From Pseudomonadota bacterium (GTDB lineage Bacteria; Pseudomonadota; Gammaproteobacteria; UBA5335), in contig PKCW01000100.1 of the NCBI GenBank assembly GCA_002862965.1, forward strand, positions 1 to 6,814: a stretch of 6,814 nucleotides of DNA. Reading direction: 5' to 3'. The position numbers were made by a program, and so were the translations under genes. The notes beneath the pieces are model-generated. The model had not been told where the DNA came from. It saw only the letters and a list, made by a program, of their open reading frames with translations, and searched no databases. Shown piece after piece: positions 1-6,814 of this stretch (position 1 is the stretch's first letter; every line of letters starts with the position of its first letter).

Positions 1-1573
1 GATCGCCGCCCTGACCCTTGCCCATGTCGTGGTAGAGCCCGGCGATGTAGAGCAGCTCGCGCTTGGGGATGCGCGCCACGACCTCGCTGCACAGCGGATA
101 TTCGTGCGCGAACTCGGGCACCGTGATGCGACGCAGGTTGCGCAGCACGAACAGCAGGTGCTGATCCACGGTATAGGCATGGAACAGGTCGAACTGCATG
201 CGGCCGACCAGCGCGCCGAACTCCGGCAGATAGCGGGCCAGGATGCCGTAACGGTTCATGCGCCGCAGTTCGTGGGTGATGCCGTGCGGCTGATGCAGCA
301 TCTCCATGAACAGGCTGCGGGCGCGGATGTCGTCCCGGAAAGGGCCATCGATGAGATAGCGATGCTGGCGGATCAGCCGGATGGTGGCGGCGCGCACGCC
401 CTGGATTTCCGGGTGCTGCATCAGCAGCAGGAAGATTTCGAGCAAGGCGAAGGGATAACGGCGGAAGACGTCGGGGCGGGTGACCTCGACATGGCCGTTG
501 CGGACCTGGAAGCGGCTGTTCAAGGGCATGGCCGGTGCGGACTCGCCCTGAAAAAGGAGGGTTTCCTCGAATAGCTGCAGCAACAGTTCGTTGAGCCGGG
601 CCACGCGGGTGACCGTGCGGTAGTAGTGCTGCATGAACTGTTCGACGGCCAGATTGTGGTCCTGGTCGCTGTATCCGAAGAGGCCGGCGAGCTTGAGCTG
701 GACATCGAACAGCAAGCGGTCCTCGCGCCGGCCGGTGAGCATGTGCAGGGCCCAGCGCACGCGCCACAGGAAACGCTGGCCGTCGACCAGGGAGCACAGT
801 TCGCGCTCGGTCAGGAACCCGTGCTCATGCAATTCGTCGAGCGTTTCGGCCTGGAAGTGCCGCTTGGCGACCCAGCCGACGGTCTGGATGTCGCGCAGGC
901 CGCCGGGGCTTTCCTTGACGTTGGGTTCGAGCTGGTAGCCCGTGTCGTGGAACTTGTGATGCCGTGCGGTCTGTTCGGCCACCTTGGCGGCAAAAAACGT
1001 CCGGCTGTCCCACATGCGCCGCGGCGAGGTGGCCGCGCGCATGGCCTCGAGCAGATGCCGGTCGCCCGCGACGAGCCTCGATTCGAGCAGGTTCGACATG
1101 ACGGTGAGGTCGGCGCCGGCGAGGTCGGCACATTCGGCCACGTCGCGCACGCTGTGCCCGACCTGCAGGCCGATGTCCCACAGGGCGGTGACGAAGCGGC
1201 CGATCGCGGCGGCCCACTGGTCGCCCGCATCCGCCGGAAGGAGAATCAGCAGGTCGATGTCCGAGTGCGGCTGAAGTTCGCCCCGGCCGTACCCGCCCGT
1301 CGCCGCGAGACAGAGACGGCCGGCCTGATCGCCGACGAAATGGGACCATGCGACCCGCAGCAGTCGATCGATGCCGGCCAGCCGTCCCTGCATGAGTTGC
1401 TCGATGGGCAACCCGTCCTGGAATTCGATCCACTGGCGATGATCGAGTTCGCGCACACGCTGGCGCAGGGCGGCGATGCCCGAGGCGCCTTCTTCGACGA
1501 GCCGCTGCAAGGTGGCGTCATCGGGGATGCCCGGCGTCCGGGTGAGCACGTCCGGCATGGCATTCGTGGACAT
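1..1573 (-). CDS. glnD: Bifunctional uridylyltransferase/uridylyl-removing enzyme GlnD, 3'-truncated by window edge
   Basis: GlnD uridylylates PII proteins (GlnB/GlnK) when glutamine is low and removes UMP when it is high, so it is the cytosolic glutamine sensor for glutamine synthetase and nitrogen control. My minus-strand translation gives 524 codons without a stop before the window edge; E. coli GlnD is about 890 aa. Visible parts: the nucleotidyltransferase motif GGYGRGEL at 93-100 followed by PHSDID at 102-107 (catalytic acidic residues), the family motif ESPGGLRDIQ at 221-230, and the start of the HD phosphohydrolase domain with HAYTVDQH at 465-472 and HD at 515-516 in YHDMGKGQGGD. The rest of the HD domain and the two C-terminal ACT domains lie outside the window. 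The ATG at 1573 is chosen because CGGAG (1581-1585) sits 7 bases upstream and the map stop is only 12 bases away, suggesting co-transcription and perhaps coupling. No frameshift is seen. Family identity is very secure. Confidence 0.95.
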   Translation of the reverse strand, partial: MSTNAMPDVLTRTPGIPDDATLQRLVEEGASGIAALRQRVRELDHRQWIEFQDGLPIEQLMQGRLAGIDRLLRVAWSHFVGDQAGRLCLAATGGYGRGELQPHSDIDLLILLPADAGDQWAAAIGRFVTALWDIGLQVGHSVRDVAECADLAGADLTVMSNLLESRLVAGDRHLLEAMRAATSPRRMWDSRTFFAAKVAEQTARHHKFHDTGYQLEPNVKESPGGLRDIQTVGWVAKRHFQAETLDELHEHGFLTERELCSLVDGQRFLWRVRWALHMLTGRREDRLLFDVQLKLAGLFGYSDQDHNLAVEQFMQHYYRTVTRVARLNELLLQLFEETLLFQGESAPAMPLNSRFQVRNGHVEVTRPDVFRRYPFALLEIFLLLMQHPEIQGVRAATIRLIRQHRYLIDGPFRDDIRARSLFMEMLHQPHGITHELRRMNRYGILARYLPEFGALVGRMQFDLFHAYTVDQHLLFVLRNLRRITVPEFAHEYPLCSEVVARIPKRELLYIAGLYHDMGKGQGGD

Positions 1574-1585
1574 GTTGCGACTCCG

Positions 1586-2371
1586 TCAGCGTCCGGGCTG
1601 TGCGGGAACATCCTCATTGGACCGCAGTGTGAGGATCTCGTGCCCGGATTCGGTGACCAGCAGCGTGTGTTCCCACTGCGCCGACAGTCCATGATCCTTG
1701 GTCACCACCGTCCATCCGTCGGGGAGCAGTTTCACGTGACGCTTGCCGGCGTTGACCATCGGCTCGATCGTGAAGCACATGCCCGGTTCCAGGACCAGCC
1801 CGGTGCCGGGCGTGCCGTAGTGCAGGACCTGCGGATCTTCGTGGAACACGCGACCGATGCCGTGCCCGCAATACTCCCGCACGACGGAGAAGCCTTCCCG
1901 CTCGACGTAGGTCTGGATGGCCGCACCGAGGTCGCCGAGCCGCACGCCGGGACGCACCATGTTGATGCCGATGAACAGGGCCTCGCGCGTCACCCGCACC
2001 AGTCGCTGGGCGAGCACCGATGCCTCGCCGACCTGGAACATGGCGCTGGTGTCGCCGTGGAAGCCGTCCTTGATGACGGTGATGTCGATGTTGACGATAT
2101 CGCCTGATTTCAGCACCTTGGGGCCGGGGATCCCGTGGCAGACCACGTGATTGACGGAGGTGCAGATCGAGCGCGGAAAGCCGTTGTAGTCGAGCGGGGC
2201 GGGGATGGCGCGCAGTTCGTCGACGATGTAGTCATGGCAGATGCGATCCAGCCGCTCGGTGGTGATGCCGGGACGGACGTGCGGCGCGATCATTTCCAGC
2301 ACCTGGGCGGCCAGTCGGCCGGCCACGCGCATTTTTTCCTGTTCTTCAGGCGTCTTCAGATTCACTTGCAT
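1586..2371 (-). CDS. map: Type I methionine aminopeptidase
   Basis: Map is a cytosolic metalloprotease that removes the N-terminal methionine from nascent proteins with small second residues, after deformylation. The 261-aa product is close to the 264 aa of E. coli Map. The pita-bread metal ligands are all visible: D96 (in DIVNIDIT), D107 (in HGDTS), H170 (in CGHGIGR), E203 (in FTIEPM) and E234 (in QWEHTLL), plus substrate-contacting H79 and H177. The reading frame stays open upstream to about 2533, but the start at 2371 (MQVNLKTPEE) fits the family N-terminus. The upstream stretch would run through the divergent rpsB promoter and resembles no Map. The ribosome binding site is weak (a GAG about 7-9 bases upstream). 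It is transcribed away from rpsB and leads into glnD after 12 bases, the arrangement seen in E. coli and relatives. All catalytic residues are intact. Confidence 0.97.
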   Translation of the reverse strand: MQVNLKTPEEQEKMRVAGRLAAQVLEMIAPHVRPGITTERLDRICHDYIVDELRAIPAPLDYNGFPRSICTSVNHVVCHGIPGPKVLKSGDIVNIDITVIKDGFHGDTSAMFQVGEASVLAQRLVRVTREALFIGINMVRPGVRLGDLGAAIQTYVEREGFSVVREYCGHGIGRVFHEDPQVLHYGTPGTGLVLEPGMCFTIEPMVNAGKRHVKLLPDGWTVVTKDHGLSAQWEHTLLVTESGHEILTLRSNEDVPAQPGR

Positions 2372-2439
2372 GGGAAGGCTCGTCGGTGGGCGCAGGCGTG
2401 GTGCGGAGGGCCGGTACACCGTCGCGGCACCCGGCGCAT

Positions 2440-2469
2440 TTGTCGTGAAACAGGGGTCTATGGTATAAA
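2440..2469 (+). promoter_or_regulatory. Predicted sigma-70 promoter of rpsB-tsf, extended -10 type
   Basis: The -10 box TATAAA (2464-2469) is preceded by TGG (2461-2463), an extended -10 element, and followed directly by the GC-rich discriminator GCGCCGGC. The best -35 is TTGTCG at 2440-2445 with an 18-base spacer, a modest match, as is common when an extended -10 is present. Enterobacterial rpsB promoters are described with the same design (extended -10 plus GC discriminator, the hallmark of stringent, growth-rate-controlled promoters). The predicted transcript starts near 2476, about 150 bases before the rpsB start codon. Sequence match and position support it; the start site itself is inferred. 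Confidence 0.75.
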
Positions 2470-2475
2470 GCGCCG

Positions 2476-2625
2476 GCTTTTTCGGCAATTGCCTGATCGA
2501 TGCCCGCCCATCCTGGCCGGGCACGGAACACAATCCGCACGCGCGTCGTCACGGCTGGCTGGGTGCCCCACGGGGTGGCTCGCCGGGATGCGCGGAGGCT
2601 CAACCCAAACATCGGAGTTACCATC
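2476..2625 (+). promoter_or_regulatory. Structured 5' leader of rpsB (candidate S2 autoregulatory leader / t44 RNA region)
   Basis: The ~150-nt untranslated stretch between the predicted rpsB promoter and its start codon occupies the place of the enterobacterial leader through which free S2 represses rpsB-tsf, the region known as t44 (tff) RNA between map and rpsB. Pairings I can see: a 6-bp stem TGCCCG (2501-2506) with CGGGCA (2518-2523); a long-range helix TGGGT (2560-2564) with ACCCA (2603-2607), continued by GCC (2565-2567) with GGC (2597-2599); and an inner hairpin CCAC (2568-2571) with GTGG (2575-2578). The Shine-Dalgarno CGGAG (2613-2617) lies just after the long-range helix, where its folding or S2 binding could control ribosome access. 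The perfect palindrome GGCAATTGCC is at 2484-2493. Homology to t44 is inferred from position and structure; I could not align it. Confidence 0.6.
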
Positions 2626-3399
2626 ATGCCTGACATTTCCATGCGCCAACTGCTCGAGGCCGGGGTTCATTTCGGACACCAGACGCGATTCTGGAATCCC
2701 CGCATGGCGCCCTATATCTTCGGCGCGCGCAACAACATCCACATCATCAATCTCGAACACACGCTGCCCATGCTGCGCGATGCGCTGGATCAGGGGCGGC
2801 GCATCGTGGCGCAGGGCGGCACGATCCTGTTCGTGGGAACCAAGCGCGCGGCCTCCGATCACATGCGGGAACAGGCGGCGCGCTGCGGCATGCCCTTCGT
2901 CGCCCATCGCTGGCTGGGCGGCATGCTCACCAACTGGCAGACCGTACGTCAGTCGATTCGCCGCCTCAAGGGCTTGGAGCAAATGGCCGAAGACGGCACG
3001 CTGGATCGCCTCAGCAAGAAAGAGGCCCTGATGCTGAGCCGCGAAAGCGAGAAGCTGGAACGCAGCCTGGGTGGCATCAAGGACATGAATCGCCTGCCCG
3101 ACGCCCTGTTCATCGTCGATGTCGGTCACGAATCGATCGCCGTGAGCGAAGCGGCCAAGCTCGGGATTCCCGTCATCGGCGTGGTGGATACGAACAATTC
3201 GCCGTCGGGCGTGCACTACCCGATTCCCGGCAACGACGATGCCATGCGGGCGGTGGGGCTGTACGCGCAATTGATGGCGGACGCTGCGCTCGAGGGCAAG
3301 CTGAGTCGCGGCGAAGGCGGTCTGGGCGATGATTTCGTCGAAGTGGATTCGGACGCCGCCGCGGCTGCCGTGGGTGACGCGACCGATACCACCCACTGA
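2626..3399 (+). CDS. rpsB: 30S ribosomal protein S2
   Basis: S2 binds late to the 30S subunit, at the junction of head and body, and is needed with S1 for initiation on leadered mRNAs. The 257-aa product shows both S2 signatures: the N-terminal block with [13 protein letters not shown] (13-25) and the C-terminal block with [19 protein letters not shown] (187-205). Between them lie FVGTKRAA (69-76) and [11 protein letters not shown] (94-104). The start ATG at 2626 has CGGAG 8 bases upstream and gives the standard N-terminus [13 protein letters not shown]; an open frame extends to 2500 but is leader sequence. E. coli S2 is 241 aa; the extra length is an acidic, alanine-rich C-terminal tail (about 236-257), a region that varies among species. 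It is the first gene of an operon with tsf, 40 bases downstream. Confidence 0.98.
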
Positions 3400-3411
3400 G
3401 ACGCCAGCCAC

Positions 3412-3426
3412 TGAAACCGTTTTTCA
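3412..3426 (+). other. Small A/T hairpin in the rpsB-tsf gap
   Basis: TGAAA (3412-3416) can pair with TTTCA (3422-3426) around a 5-base loop. The stem is weak, has no following T-tract, and ends at the first base of the tsf Shine-Dalgarno AAGGA (3426-3430). It is unlikely to be a terminator; at most it modulates readthrough or tsf translation relative to rpsB. The 40-base gap holds nothing else that I recognise. Confidence 0.25.
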
Positions 3427-3439
3427 AGGAATCCGAACG

Positions 3440-4321
3440 ATGTCTGTGACAGCCGCCATGGTCAAGGAACTGCGCGAACGCACCGGCGCAGGGATGATGG
3501 AATGCAAGAAGGCCCTGACGGAAACGGCGGGGGATCTCGATCAGGCCATCGAGCTGATGCGCAAGCAGGGTCTTGCCAAGGCCGACAAGAAGGCCGGCCG
3601 CGTGGCCGCCGAGGGTCGCGTGATCGTGCAGCGGGATGCCTCCGGCACCGCGGCGATCGCGATCGAGGTCAACTGCGAAACCGACTTCGTCAGCGGCGGC
3701 GATGAGTTCCAGTCTTTTGCCGCCCAGGTCGCCGCCGCGGCGCTGGCCGGCGCCCCCGCCGATGTCGATGCCTTGCTCGCGCTGCCGCTCGAAGGGGGTC
3801 TGCACCTCGACGAGCGTCGCCGCGAACTGGTCGCCAAGATCGGCGAGAACATCGCCGTGCGCCGCTTCGAGCGCCTCGCCCGCCAGGGCGACGTGTTCGG
3901 GCTCTACAGCCACGGCAGCCGCATCGGTGTGGTGGTCGACCTGAAGGGTGGTGACGAAGCGCTGGCGCGTGATGTCGCCATGCACATCGCCGCCAGCCGT
4001 CCGATCTGCATTTCGCCGGACGAGGTGCCGGCGGAACTGGTGGCCAAGGAACGCGAGATTTTCGAGGCCCAGGCCCGTGAAAGCGGCAAGCCCGAGGACA
4101 TCATCCAGAAGATGGTCGACGGCCGCATCCGCAAGTACCTGAATGAGGTCGCGCTGGTCGGTCAGCCCTTTGTCAAGGATGCCGATCTCACCGTGGCGCA
4201 GCGTCTGAAGCAGGCCGGCGCCGAGGTCATGCGTTTCGTGCGTCTGGAAGTCGGCGAGGGCGTGGAAAAGAAGTCCGAGAACTTCGCCGAGGAAGTCATG
4301 GCGCAGGTTCGCGGAAGCTGA
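3440..4321 (+). CDS. tsf: Translation elongation factor Ts
   Basis: EF-Ts is the guanine nucleotide exchange factor that releases GDP from EF-Tu. The 293-aa product (E. coli 283 aa) has the N-terminal UBA-like domain with LRERTGAGMMECKKAL (11-26), the core entry CETDFV (79-84, whose D and F wedge against the EF-Tu Mg2+ site), and SHGSRIG (157-163) with the conserved histidine at 158 that contacts the EF-Tu P-loop region. The coiled-coil part follows around 200-235 (ELVAKEREIFEAQ and IIQKMVDGRIRKYLNE). The ATG at 3440 is preceded by AAGGA with a 9-base spacing, and MSVTAAMVKELR is a normal EF-Ts N-terminus; an upstream in-frame extension overlapping rpsB is dismissed. It sits after rpsB as in nearly all bacteria and is probably on the same transcript. 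Confidence 0.98.
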   Translation: MSVTAAMVKELRERTGAGMMECKKALTETAGDLDQAIELMRKQGLAKADKKAGRVAAEGRVIVQRDASGTAAIAIEVNCETDFVSGGDEFQSFAAQVAAAALAGAPADVDALLALPLEGGLHLDERRRELVAKIGENIAVRRFERLARQGDVFGLYSHGSRIGVVVDLKGGDEALARDVAMHIAASRPICISPDEVPAELVAKEREIFEAQARESGKPEDIIQKMVDGRIRKYLNEVALVGQPFVKDADLTVAQRLKQAGAEVMRFVRLEVGEGVEKKSENFAEEVMAQVRGS

Positions 4322-4408
4322 CCCGCGCGGGAACCGGATCGCTCAGGTCGGCTCGACGTGGGCGGTCCGCATCGAACCGTCACCGCGATCGACCTTCCCG
4401 AGGAGCCT

Positions 4409-5170
4409 ATGAGTCCGTCCGCTCCAGCCTTTCGCCGCATTCTGCTCAAGCTCAGCGGCGAGGCCCTGCTGGGCGATGCCGACTATGGCATCGACCCTGC
4501 GATCATCGCTCGTCTGGCACGGGAAATCGGCGAGGTCCGCGATCTGGGGATCCAGATCGGGGTGGTCATCGGTGGCGGCAACATCTTCCGTGGCGCGGGG
4601 CTGGCGAATGCCGGCATGGATCGGGTCGCTGCCGATCACATGGGCATGCTGGCCACCGTGATGAATGCGCTGGCCCTGCAGGACGCGCTGGAGCGGATCG
4701 GCGTGTTCGCGCGGGTCATGTCCGCCCTGCGCATCAACGAGGTCTGCGAGGACTACATCCGCCGCCGTGCCATCCGTCATCTGGAAAAGGGGCGGGTGGT
4801 GCTGTTTGCGGCCGGCACGGGCAATCCCTTTTTCACGACGGACACGGCTGCCAGCCTTCGGGCGATCGAGATCGGCGCTGAACTGTTGCTCAAGGCGACC
4901 AAGGTCGATGGCGTCTATGACGCCGATCCGGTCAAGGATGCTTCGGCGCGGCGCTATGACTGCCTGAGCTACGACGAGGTCATCGACCAGCGGCTCATGG
5001 TGATGGACACCACGGCGATCGTCCTGTGCCGCGACAACGATCTGCCGCTGCGGGTCTTCGACATCAAGCATGAAGGGGCCCTGATGCGTATCATGACCGG
5101 CGACCGTAGCATCGGCACCACGGTGGAAACGCGGCCGACCGCACGCAACCGACCCGCGCCAGGAGCATGA
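4409..5170 (+). CDS. pyrH: Uridylate kinase (UMP kinase)
   Basis: PyrH phosphorylates UMP to UDP with ATP. It is a cytosolic hexamer of the amino-acid-kinase family and in this class is typically GTP-activated and UTP-inhibited. The 253-aa product (E. coli 241 aa) shows KLSGEAL (14-20), the nucleotide-binding loop GGGN (55-58), RGAG (61-64), [11 protein letters not shown] (76-86), [10 protein letters not shown] (136-145, UMP binding) and KATKVDGV (162-169). The chosen ATG at 4409 gives [20 protein letters not shown]. The Shine-Dalgarno GAGG (4400-4403) is a tight 5 bases away; an in-frame ATG at 4358 has no family support. The C-terminus runs about 10-12 residues past the usual end ([13 protein letters not shown]), with the frr ribosome binding site encoded in its last codons. 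The 87-base gap after tsf contains the palindrome CCCGCGCGGG (4322-4331) but no clear promoter or terminator. Confidence 0.98.
5161..5165 (+). promoter_or_regulatory. frr ribosome binding site inside the end of pyrH
   Basis: AGGAG lies 6 bases before the frr ATG (5172) and within the last pyrH codons; the pyrH stop (5168-5170) and the frr start are separated by a single base. Ribosomes ending pyrH will cover this site, so translational coupling of frr to pyrH is likely. The site also fixes the frr start. Confidence 0.8.
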
Positions 5171-5171
5171 C

Positions 5172-5729
5172 ATGATCGATCCTATCCGCAAGGACGCCGT
5201 CGAACGGATGAAGAAGACCATCGAGGTGCTGCGTCAGGGGCTTTCCAAGATCCGCACCGGCCGAGCCCATACCAGTCTGGTGGATCACATCCATGTCGCG
5301 TACTACGGCAGCGACGTTCCCCTGGGTCAGGTGGCCAGCGTGACGGTCACGGACGCTCGCACGCTCACCATTGCCCCGTGGGAAAAGAACATGGTGGGAC
5401 CGATCGAAAAGGCACTCATGGCCTCCGATCTCGGCGTCACACCCAACACGGCCGGCATGGCGATCCGGATCATTCTGCCTCCCCTCACCGAGGAGCGCCG
5501 GCGCGATCTGGTCAAGGTCGTCCGGCATGAGGGCGAGGGCGCCAAGGTGGCCGTCAGGGCCATCCGCCGCGATGCGAACGACCGCTTCAAGCAGTTGGAG
5601 AAGGACAAGCTGATCGGCGAGGATCTGGTGCGCAAGGCGCAGGACGAGATCCAGAAGATCACCGACGAGCACATCGGGCAGGTCGATCGGGTGCTCGAGG
5701 AAAAAGAGCAGGAGTTGCTGCAGATCTGA
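5172..5729 (+). CDS. frr: Ribosome recycling factor
   Basis: RRF splits post-termination ribosomes together with EF-G so that subunits can be reused. The 185-aa product has exactly the E. coli length. It begins with [20 protein letters not shown] in helix 1 of the three-helix bundle, followed by [13 protein letters not shown] (26-38) at the hinge into the beta-rich domain II. It then has [15 protein letters not shown] (68-82), [13 protein letters not shown] (103-115) and RAIRRDAN (129-136), which includes the conserved functional arginine at 132. The C-terminal helix ends in [10 protein letters not shown]. It follows pyrH by one base, a conserved pairing in bacteria, and nothing in the sequence suggests a separate promoter. 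All parts appear intact. Confidence 0.98.
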
Positions 5730-5733
5730 TCGG

Positions 5734-5750
5734 GTCCGGAACGACCGGAC
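5734..5750 (+). other. Perfect GC hairpin in the frr-uppS gap
   Basis: GTCCGG (5734-5739) and CCGGAC (5745-5750) form a 6-bp stem with loop AACGA, five bases after the frr stop codon. No T-run follows, so it is not a canonical Rho-independent terminator. It could mark an mRNA end or processing point, or partly attenuate into uppS. A second, weaker stem, CTTCC (5767-5771) with GGAAG (5779-5783), covers the only purine-rich stretch usable as the uppS ribosome binding site (GGGAAG, 5778-5783). Confidence 0.4.
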
Positions 5751-5793
5751 TGCATCGCACATCCGTCTTCCGGAGCCGGGAAGTCCGCCGCCC

Positions 5794-6441
5794 ATGATGC
5801 CTACCGCACCCTCTCCGCCGCCCCAGCACGTGGCCATCATCATGGACGGCAACGGGCGATGGGCGACCCGACGCGGGCAGCCGCGCGCGGCCGGTCACGA
5901 GGCCGGCGTTCGGGCCGCGCGGACGGCTGTCCGGGCCTGCCGCGACGCAGGCGTCCGCGTGCTGACGTTGTATGCGTTCAGCAGCGAAAACTGGCTCCGT
6001 CCGACCGCCGAGGTCGATTTTCTGCTGGCGCTGTTCGTCCGGTCCATGGAAGCCGAACTCGAGACGCTGCATGCCGAGGGCGTGCGGGTTCGATTCATCG
6101 GCGATCGGGCTGCGTTGCCGCCGTCCTTGCGGGCCGTCGTCCAGCGGACCGAGCAGCATACCGCCGGCAATCCCGGCATGGTGCTGGTCATCGCGCTGGC
6201 TTATGGCGGCCGTCAGGATCTGCTGCGCGCGGTTCGCGTGTTGGCTGGGCGCATCGCCGCGGGCGCCATGGCTGCGGACCAAATCGATGAGGCGCTCCTG
6301 GGGGCGCACCTTGATCTGGCGGATCTGCCCGATCCCGATCTGCTGATCCGCACCGGCGGCGAATACCGCGTCAGCAACTTCCTCCTCTGGCACCTCGCCT
6401 ATACCGAACTCTATTTCTGTGATCTTCTCTGGCCTCCCTGA
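5794..6441 (+). CDS. uppS: (2E,6E)-farnesyl-diphosphate-specific undecaprenyl-diphosphate synthase, 3' end lost at a junction
   Basis: UppS adds eight isoprene units in cis to farnesyl diphosphate, making the C55 carrier for peptidoglycan and O-antigen synthesis; it is a soluble dimer working at the membrane face. The 215-aa reading shows HVAIIMDGNGRW (12-23, catalytic D18), YAFSSENW (60-67), YGGR (137-140), RTGGEYRVSNF (186-196) and E205 in TELYF, so the diphosphate- and Mg2+-binding residues are present. The family match stops at LWP (212-214); one proline codon and TGA (6439-6441) follow. E. coli UppS (253 aa) continues about 30 residues past this motif, into a C-terminal helix and an RRFG motif. 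The DNA changes composition at this point, so the stop belongs to foreign sequence and is not a natural end. The start at 5794 has a poor ribosome binding site; the second ATG (5797) is equally possible. The N-terminus is shorter than in E. coli. The absence of dxr between frr and uppS resembles Pseudomonas. Confidence 0.93.
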   Translation: MMPTAPSPPPQHVAIIMDGNGRWATRRGQPRAAGHEAGVRAARTAVRACRDAGVRVLTLYAFSSENWLRPTAEVDFLLALFVRSMEAELETLHAEGVRVRFIGDRAALPPSLRAVVQRTEQHTAGNPGMVLVIALAYGGRQDLLRAVRVLAGRIAAGAMAADQIDEALLGAHLDLADLPDPDLLIRTGGEYRVSNFLLWHLAYTELYFCDLLWPP

Positions 6442-6615
6442 ATGTGCTTTTGGATTTCCTTGAGATTTTTCATGAGTGTCCTTTGATCTTCCAGCATTCT
6501 TAGGTTTTTTGATTTTATAGGGTTTGTTTGAACGTGCGACGCAGTACAACCAAAATCTGATGGAATCGGAGATCGATTCAAGTTCCTTTGGTTCTGCGTT
6601 TATAATCGTTGTTGC

Positions 6616-6664
6616 TGGTCCCGGTTTTGAAAAAGTTCGGTTTCTGGTTCTTGGTCCGGTTTTG
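6616..6664 (+). repeat. Degenerate direct repeat TGGTC(C)CGGTTTTG
   Basis: TGGTCCCGGTTTTG (6616-6629) recurs as TGGTCCGGTTTTG (6652-6664), with one C deleted. Between the copies lie related words (TTCGGTTTCTGGTTCTTGG, 6636-6654). Repeats of the CGGTTT/GGTTC type are common in plant intergenic DNA. They support the view that the tail is not part of the bacterial chromosome. Confidence 0.55.
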
Positions 6665-6763
6665 GGGCTTCCTCAAAGGCCACCATATAATGCCTGAGGA
6701 ATAAGAACTGCTAGTGCATGAACGGCTTAGGTAAATGTTCTCATATCCCCCGGAGTTTCTCAG

Positions 6764-6789
6764 AACCATACGCGCCCGCAGGCGTGGTT
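6764..6789. repeat. Imperfect inverted repeat in the tail
   Basis: GCGCC (6772-6776) can pair with GGCGT (6781-6785) around a CGCA loop, and AACC (6764-6767) with GGTT (6786-6789) beyond a four-base bulge. It is a GC-rich island in otherwise AT-richer DNA. No T-tract or partner site identifies a role. Confidence 0.3.
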
Positions 6790-6790
6790 G

Positions 6791-6810
6791 CATCATTATC
6801 ATCATCATCA
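6791..6810 (+). repeat. Short CAT microsatellite-like tract
   Basis: The tract reads CATCATTATCATCATCATCA, a near-perfect trinucleotide run interrupted once, ending four bases before the window edge. Simple repeats like this are frequent in eukaryotic DNA and are a common place for assemblies to break. Confidence 0.6.
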
Positions 6811-6814
6811 AAGG

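Follow-up and report, generated by a model that had tools for sequence, protein, structure and literature searches.

The right end of the window is very likely a misassembled contig end, at which other DNA was joined to a bacterial uppS gene after base 6435. The window, i.e., the whole stretch of DNA analysed here, corresponds to the entire contig C135 (6814 bases, 64% GC over its whole length) of the genome bin G000, which comprises 2,295,096 bases in 330 contigs and is 82.2% complete. The original prediction had placed a chimeric join at about 6433-6441; this is supported by the presence of a single uppS in the bin, the absence of the tail from 94 relatives, the location of cdsA on a separate contig, and the occurrence of other broken contig ends. 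We infer that the join is artificial, and the feature at the window end is probably an ordinary error rather than biology. Its meaning is mainly that of a warning, as some contig ends of the G000 bin carry gene-breaking tails. Truncated genes, apparent fusions, and apparent eukaryote-to-bacterium transfers at the contig ends of this bin are not credible without reads. The features of the window are collected in Table 1; no tRNA was found in it.

Table 1. Features of the window, with positions counted from its first base.
Feature	Position	Strand	Remarks
glnD	2..1573	-	Pfam GlnD_UR_UTase; ordinary truncation by the left contig end
map-like ORF		-	Beside glnD; named by eye
rpsB, tsf, pyrH, frr	2626..5729	+	5' of uppS; ORFs named by eye
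Native part of uppS (undecaprenyl diphosphate synthase)	5794..6435	+	Residues 1-214, the last three being LWP; PF01255 and TIGR00055
First non-native bases, CCC TGA	6436..6441	+	Replace the conserved Asp/Glu codon after LWP
Unrelated tail up to the contig end	6436..6814	none	379 bases, 44% GC; most likely misjoined

The break within uppS

The UppS ORF extends over 5794-6441 and encodes 215 amino acids. At the break, the bases read TGG CCT CCC TGA, with the stop codon TGA at 6439-6441. UppS residues 16-214 correspond to positions 1-197 of 219 in the Pfam profile PF01255, and residues 10-214 to positions 2-206 of 228 in the NCBIfam profile TIGR00055; both matches stop at residue 214 and leave 22 positions of the profile unmatched. 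The ends of the two profile matches and the TGA codon thus bear out the original prediction that the reading is canonical up to residue 214 (LWP) and terminates one codon on. Like other members of the PF01255 family, the protein matches most of the family length (residues 10-214). Unlike them, it has no C-terminal segment with the R-x-G motif on this contig, and the 215-residue reading lacks this motif of functional UppS.

Three other genomes of the same genus were available, and a uppS match was obtained in two of them (G001 and G003). Native UppS residues 2-214 share 74% identity with the protein of G001. Both congeners read CCT GAT where the window reads CCT CCC; therefore, the last base needing a native origin is 6435. 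Judged by the family profiles and by the relatives, homology to the native uppS locus ends abruptly at the join. Among the matches listed in named genomes, the nearest UppS proteins belong to a Gammaproteobacteria bacterium metagenome bin (74% identity) and a Pseudoxanthomonas sp. metagenome bin (73%).

The way in which uppS continues elsewhere was followed in 109 related loci, 29 from relatives and 80 among the matches listed in named genomes, with at least one contig apparently common to both sets. In the 96 loci that were parsed, LWP is followed by DF (88 loci), EF (5), or EV (3), such that D or E stands directly after LWP in 96 of 96. An RRFG-type end is likewise found in all 96, 24-44 residues after LWP, and the earlier estimate that about 30 residues are missing was right. 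Four further loci carry a variant motif (AWPDF, HWPDF twice, and CWPDF), each with an R-x-G end. In total, UppS was read beyond the break point in 100 of the 109 loci, and the R-x-G end was reached in every one of these. One further locus, from another genome of the same family (L010, G005:C30), is interrupted by the end of its contig a few residues short of LWP; assemblers may often break at the conserved motif. Eight loci gave no match to the search motif; one of them (L013), read separately, continues likewise, and the other seven were left unread.

The tail and the missing continuation of uppS

The original prediction also held that GC falls from the point at which uppS breaks. The low-GC tail itself is real: positions 6436-6814 have 44.1% GC and a CpG observed/expected ratio of 0.87, vs. 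1.20 in 1-6435. However, the two points do not coincide: by GC alone, the composition changes near 6400 (range within 2 log units, 6361-6412), which is upstream of the loss of homology at 6436. The AT-rich stretch encoding the conserved YTELYF sequence is probably responsible for this early change point. The further claim that the tail lacks a bacterial coding signal is corroborated by two results. Its longest stop-free run, 79 codons, was reached in 47% of 2000 first-order simulations, and for two translations covering parts of the tail, neither Pfam nor PHROGs gave a family match at E<=1.

A separate search with 6436-6814, as proposed in the original prediction, gave no convincing match among relatives, a sample of the phylum, plasmids, or phages. 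The tail was found in 0 of 94 other relatives, and plasmids and phages gave no match by blastn at E 0.1. Comparison with 397 other members of the phylum, a set that overlaps the 94 relatives, returned only two matches of 28-30 bases (E 2e-4 and 4e-4 per genome); these sit in different parts of the tail and were read as chance. No exact 24-mer of the tail was present in genome_contigs and no exact 22-mer in viral_contigs, both being weak tests that require identity and from which G000 records may have been left out. A second copy of the tail was not found elsewhere in the bin. A possible eukaryotic donor is suggested only by the base composition of the tail and by the absence of convincing matches in prokaryotes.

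Few structural features were detected around the join. Tandem repeats detected in 6400-6814 amount to a single CAT-type run, 20 bases long and close to the end of the contig. Inverted repeats of at least 10 bases are absent from 6300-6814; one 8-base match was noted. Direct repeats near the join are short only, among them an 11-base near-repeat (10/11) that flanks it at 6417-6427 and 6481-6491; the far end of any insert would lie beyond the contig. The only Rfam match at E<=1 in 6300-6814, mir-50, reached 18.8 bits, where the gathering score is 43, and was taken as chance.

The native continuation was sought on the cdsA side. In both G001 and G003, the gene order is pyrH-frr-uppS-cdsA-dxr, according to ORFs named by eye. 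A family search identified a sole cdsA-family match in G000, on contig C282 (3293 bases), with dxr- and rseP-like ORFs, also named by eye, after cdsA. Upstream of the cdsA homology, C282 has an overhang of 113 bases (3181-3293) with 71% GC, which is open in frame with cdsA. This overhang does not encode the uppS 3' end, and no source for it was found elsewhere in the bin or in plasmids. With a full-length congener query at E<=10, neither a second uppS nor the missing 3' end was detected in the bin, the truncated copy being the one match. Of the missing uppS 3' end and the adjoining cdsA, for which a search of the assembly had been suggested, only cdsA was thus recovered; the 3' end is not in the bin. 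From the relatives, the native bases missing between C135 and C282 are estimated at about 120.

Other contig ends of the bin

Contig ends were surveyed across the bin by taking 80 further contigs at spread numbers, of which three reading as N were dropped. Once C282 and the window had been added, the survey covered 157 ends of 79 contigs, C3 being represented by its left end. When the 157 end windows (200 bases) were scored under a fourth-order model trained on the bin, 5 fell below -0.09, vs. 0.17% of 5731 overlapping inner windows; these were the left ends of C3, C50, and C195 and the right ends of C134 and the window. A second score set a flat low-GC model against a third-order model of the bin. 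The right end of the window ranked first of the 157 ends (50.9), followed by C195 left (38.2), C3 left (33.1), and C50 left (26.2), with a total of 4 of 157 ends at 25 or more. Lower scores were obtained for C134 right (17.3), C136 right (16.5), C95 right (14.5), and C12 left (14.1). The C136 and C12 ends were not counted as foreign, their ORFs looking bacterial by eye.

Genes are cut at several of these ends. At C3, a gene for an AmpG-family transporter is broken: the NCBIfam profile is matched over positions 91-178 of 417, a stop follows, and past the stop lie about 200 bases with CTCACT-type repeats. At C95, rpoD breaks off once position 33 of the 81 in the region 1.1 profile has been reached. 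Two cases are weaker. At C134, the transaldolase profile is nearly complete (279/285) and the frame continues into sequence of 50% GC, and at C195, a glycosidase-like ORF (Pfam E 8e-8) stops, by eye, just past the GC drop. The low-GC tails on the sampled ends are about 170-430 bases long. When seven contig-end tails were compared with each other, they shared only matches of 10-19 bases (E>=0.17); therefore, they do not represent one repeated element.

Two of these ends show additional peculiarities. In C3, the ORF at 200-691 on the minus strand has about 77 residues without a family match before AmpG profile position 91; in addition to the low-GC tail, the contig may therefore contain another misjoin here, in frame with AmpG. 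In C50, positions 1-245 carry the last part of sdhA at about 43% GC in a contig of 66% GC, with the frame intact. This looks like a join to the sdhA of another bacterium at a conserved stretch.

As a control from the same genus, 41 contigs of G001 were fetched; after removal of 8 that read as N, 66 ends of 33 contigs remained. None of these ends reached a second score of 25; one, the left end of C20, scored 21.2, and no ORF was listed over its first 503 bases. With 0/66 ends in G001 and 4/157 in G000, the counts are too small for the two genomes to be told apart, and the weight is carried by the comparison of ends with inner windows within the bin. Composition alone was rejected as a mark of foreign DNA, as AT-rich coding islands exist inside contigs: internal segments scoring 25 or more were found in 6 of the 79 G000 contigs. 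In contrast to such natural islands, the window tail lacks a coding signal and breaks a conserved gene. The top internal segment (C10, 655-1403) scores 94, which is above the window tail, and holds a 251-codon ORF. This island has 44% GC, its ORF is methyltransferase-like by eye, and it is possibly natural and horizontally acquired.

Probable misjoining and its alternatives

Misassembly that yields chimeric contigs is a recognised class of error, in the terms of the GUNC paper (PMC8201837), where fragments of different sources are wrongly assembled in one contig, as would be the case here. The same paper calls misassembly relatively rare (PMC8201837), whereas several sampled contig ends of the G000 bin look affected, the tails being short. 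Under a misjoin, the bacterial sequence would stop inside uppS at 6435 and the next 379 bases would be a piece of other DNA, joined either in the library or by the assembler. The real uppS would run on for about 24-44 codons and be followed by cdsA, now on C282. Chimeric library molecules, or extension by an assembler from few reads, would be in keeping with overhangs shorter than about 450 bases. A misjoin is preferred because it accounts at once for the break and the tail, for the separation of uppS from cdsA, and for the broken ends elsewhere in the bin; no rival was found that does so.

Essential in most bacteria, uppS could nevertheless have been interrupted in this strain by a real insertion or recombination of foreign DNA. 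Undecaprenyl diphosphate would then have to come from the truncated enzyme of 215 residues or from another uppS that lies outside the bin. In favour of this, the transition is sharp to a single base, a bin that is 82.2% complete could lack a second uppS, and a near-repeat flanks the join, short two-copy repeats often being due to chance. This reading is nonetheless extremely improbable in view of the single uppS in the bin, the absence of longer inverted repeats, the two tail translations without a family match, and the similar breaks at other ends of the bin. Moreover, the strong difference between the overhangs of C135 (44% GC) and C282 (71% GC) argues against one natural insert, which would need two very unlike ends. 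A truncated yet working UppS would be unlikely because the lost segment carries the presumed R-x-G motif; by our own mapping, the RRFG of UppS would be the R-x-G motif of cis-prenyltransferases. According to one paper on these enzymes, this motif organises the active site across the dimer, and the C-terminal tail contacts the active site of the partner in the human enzyme, the homodimeric members of the family being mentioned in the same connection (PMC7573591). A real join would call into question whether UppS needs its conserved C-terminus.

Alternatively, the tail could stem from an AT-rich locus elsewhere in the same genome and have been misjoined to uppS in the assembly. AT-rich islands inside other contigs are consistent with such an origin, and the true locus could be missing from an incomplete bin. 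Set against this are the lack of another copy in the bin, of a coding signal, and of any match in the 94 relatives, which together make it very improbable. The least credible proposal of all is that of a living bacterium whose only detected uppS is naturally broken and holds non-bacterial DNA, and in which a synthase lacking R-x-G, or an unknown substitute, would make the cell-wall lipid carrier.
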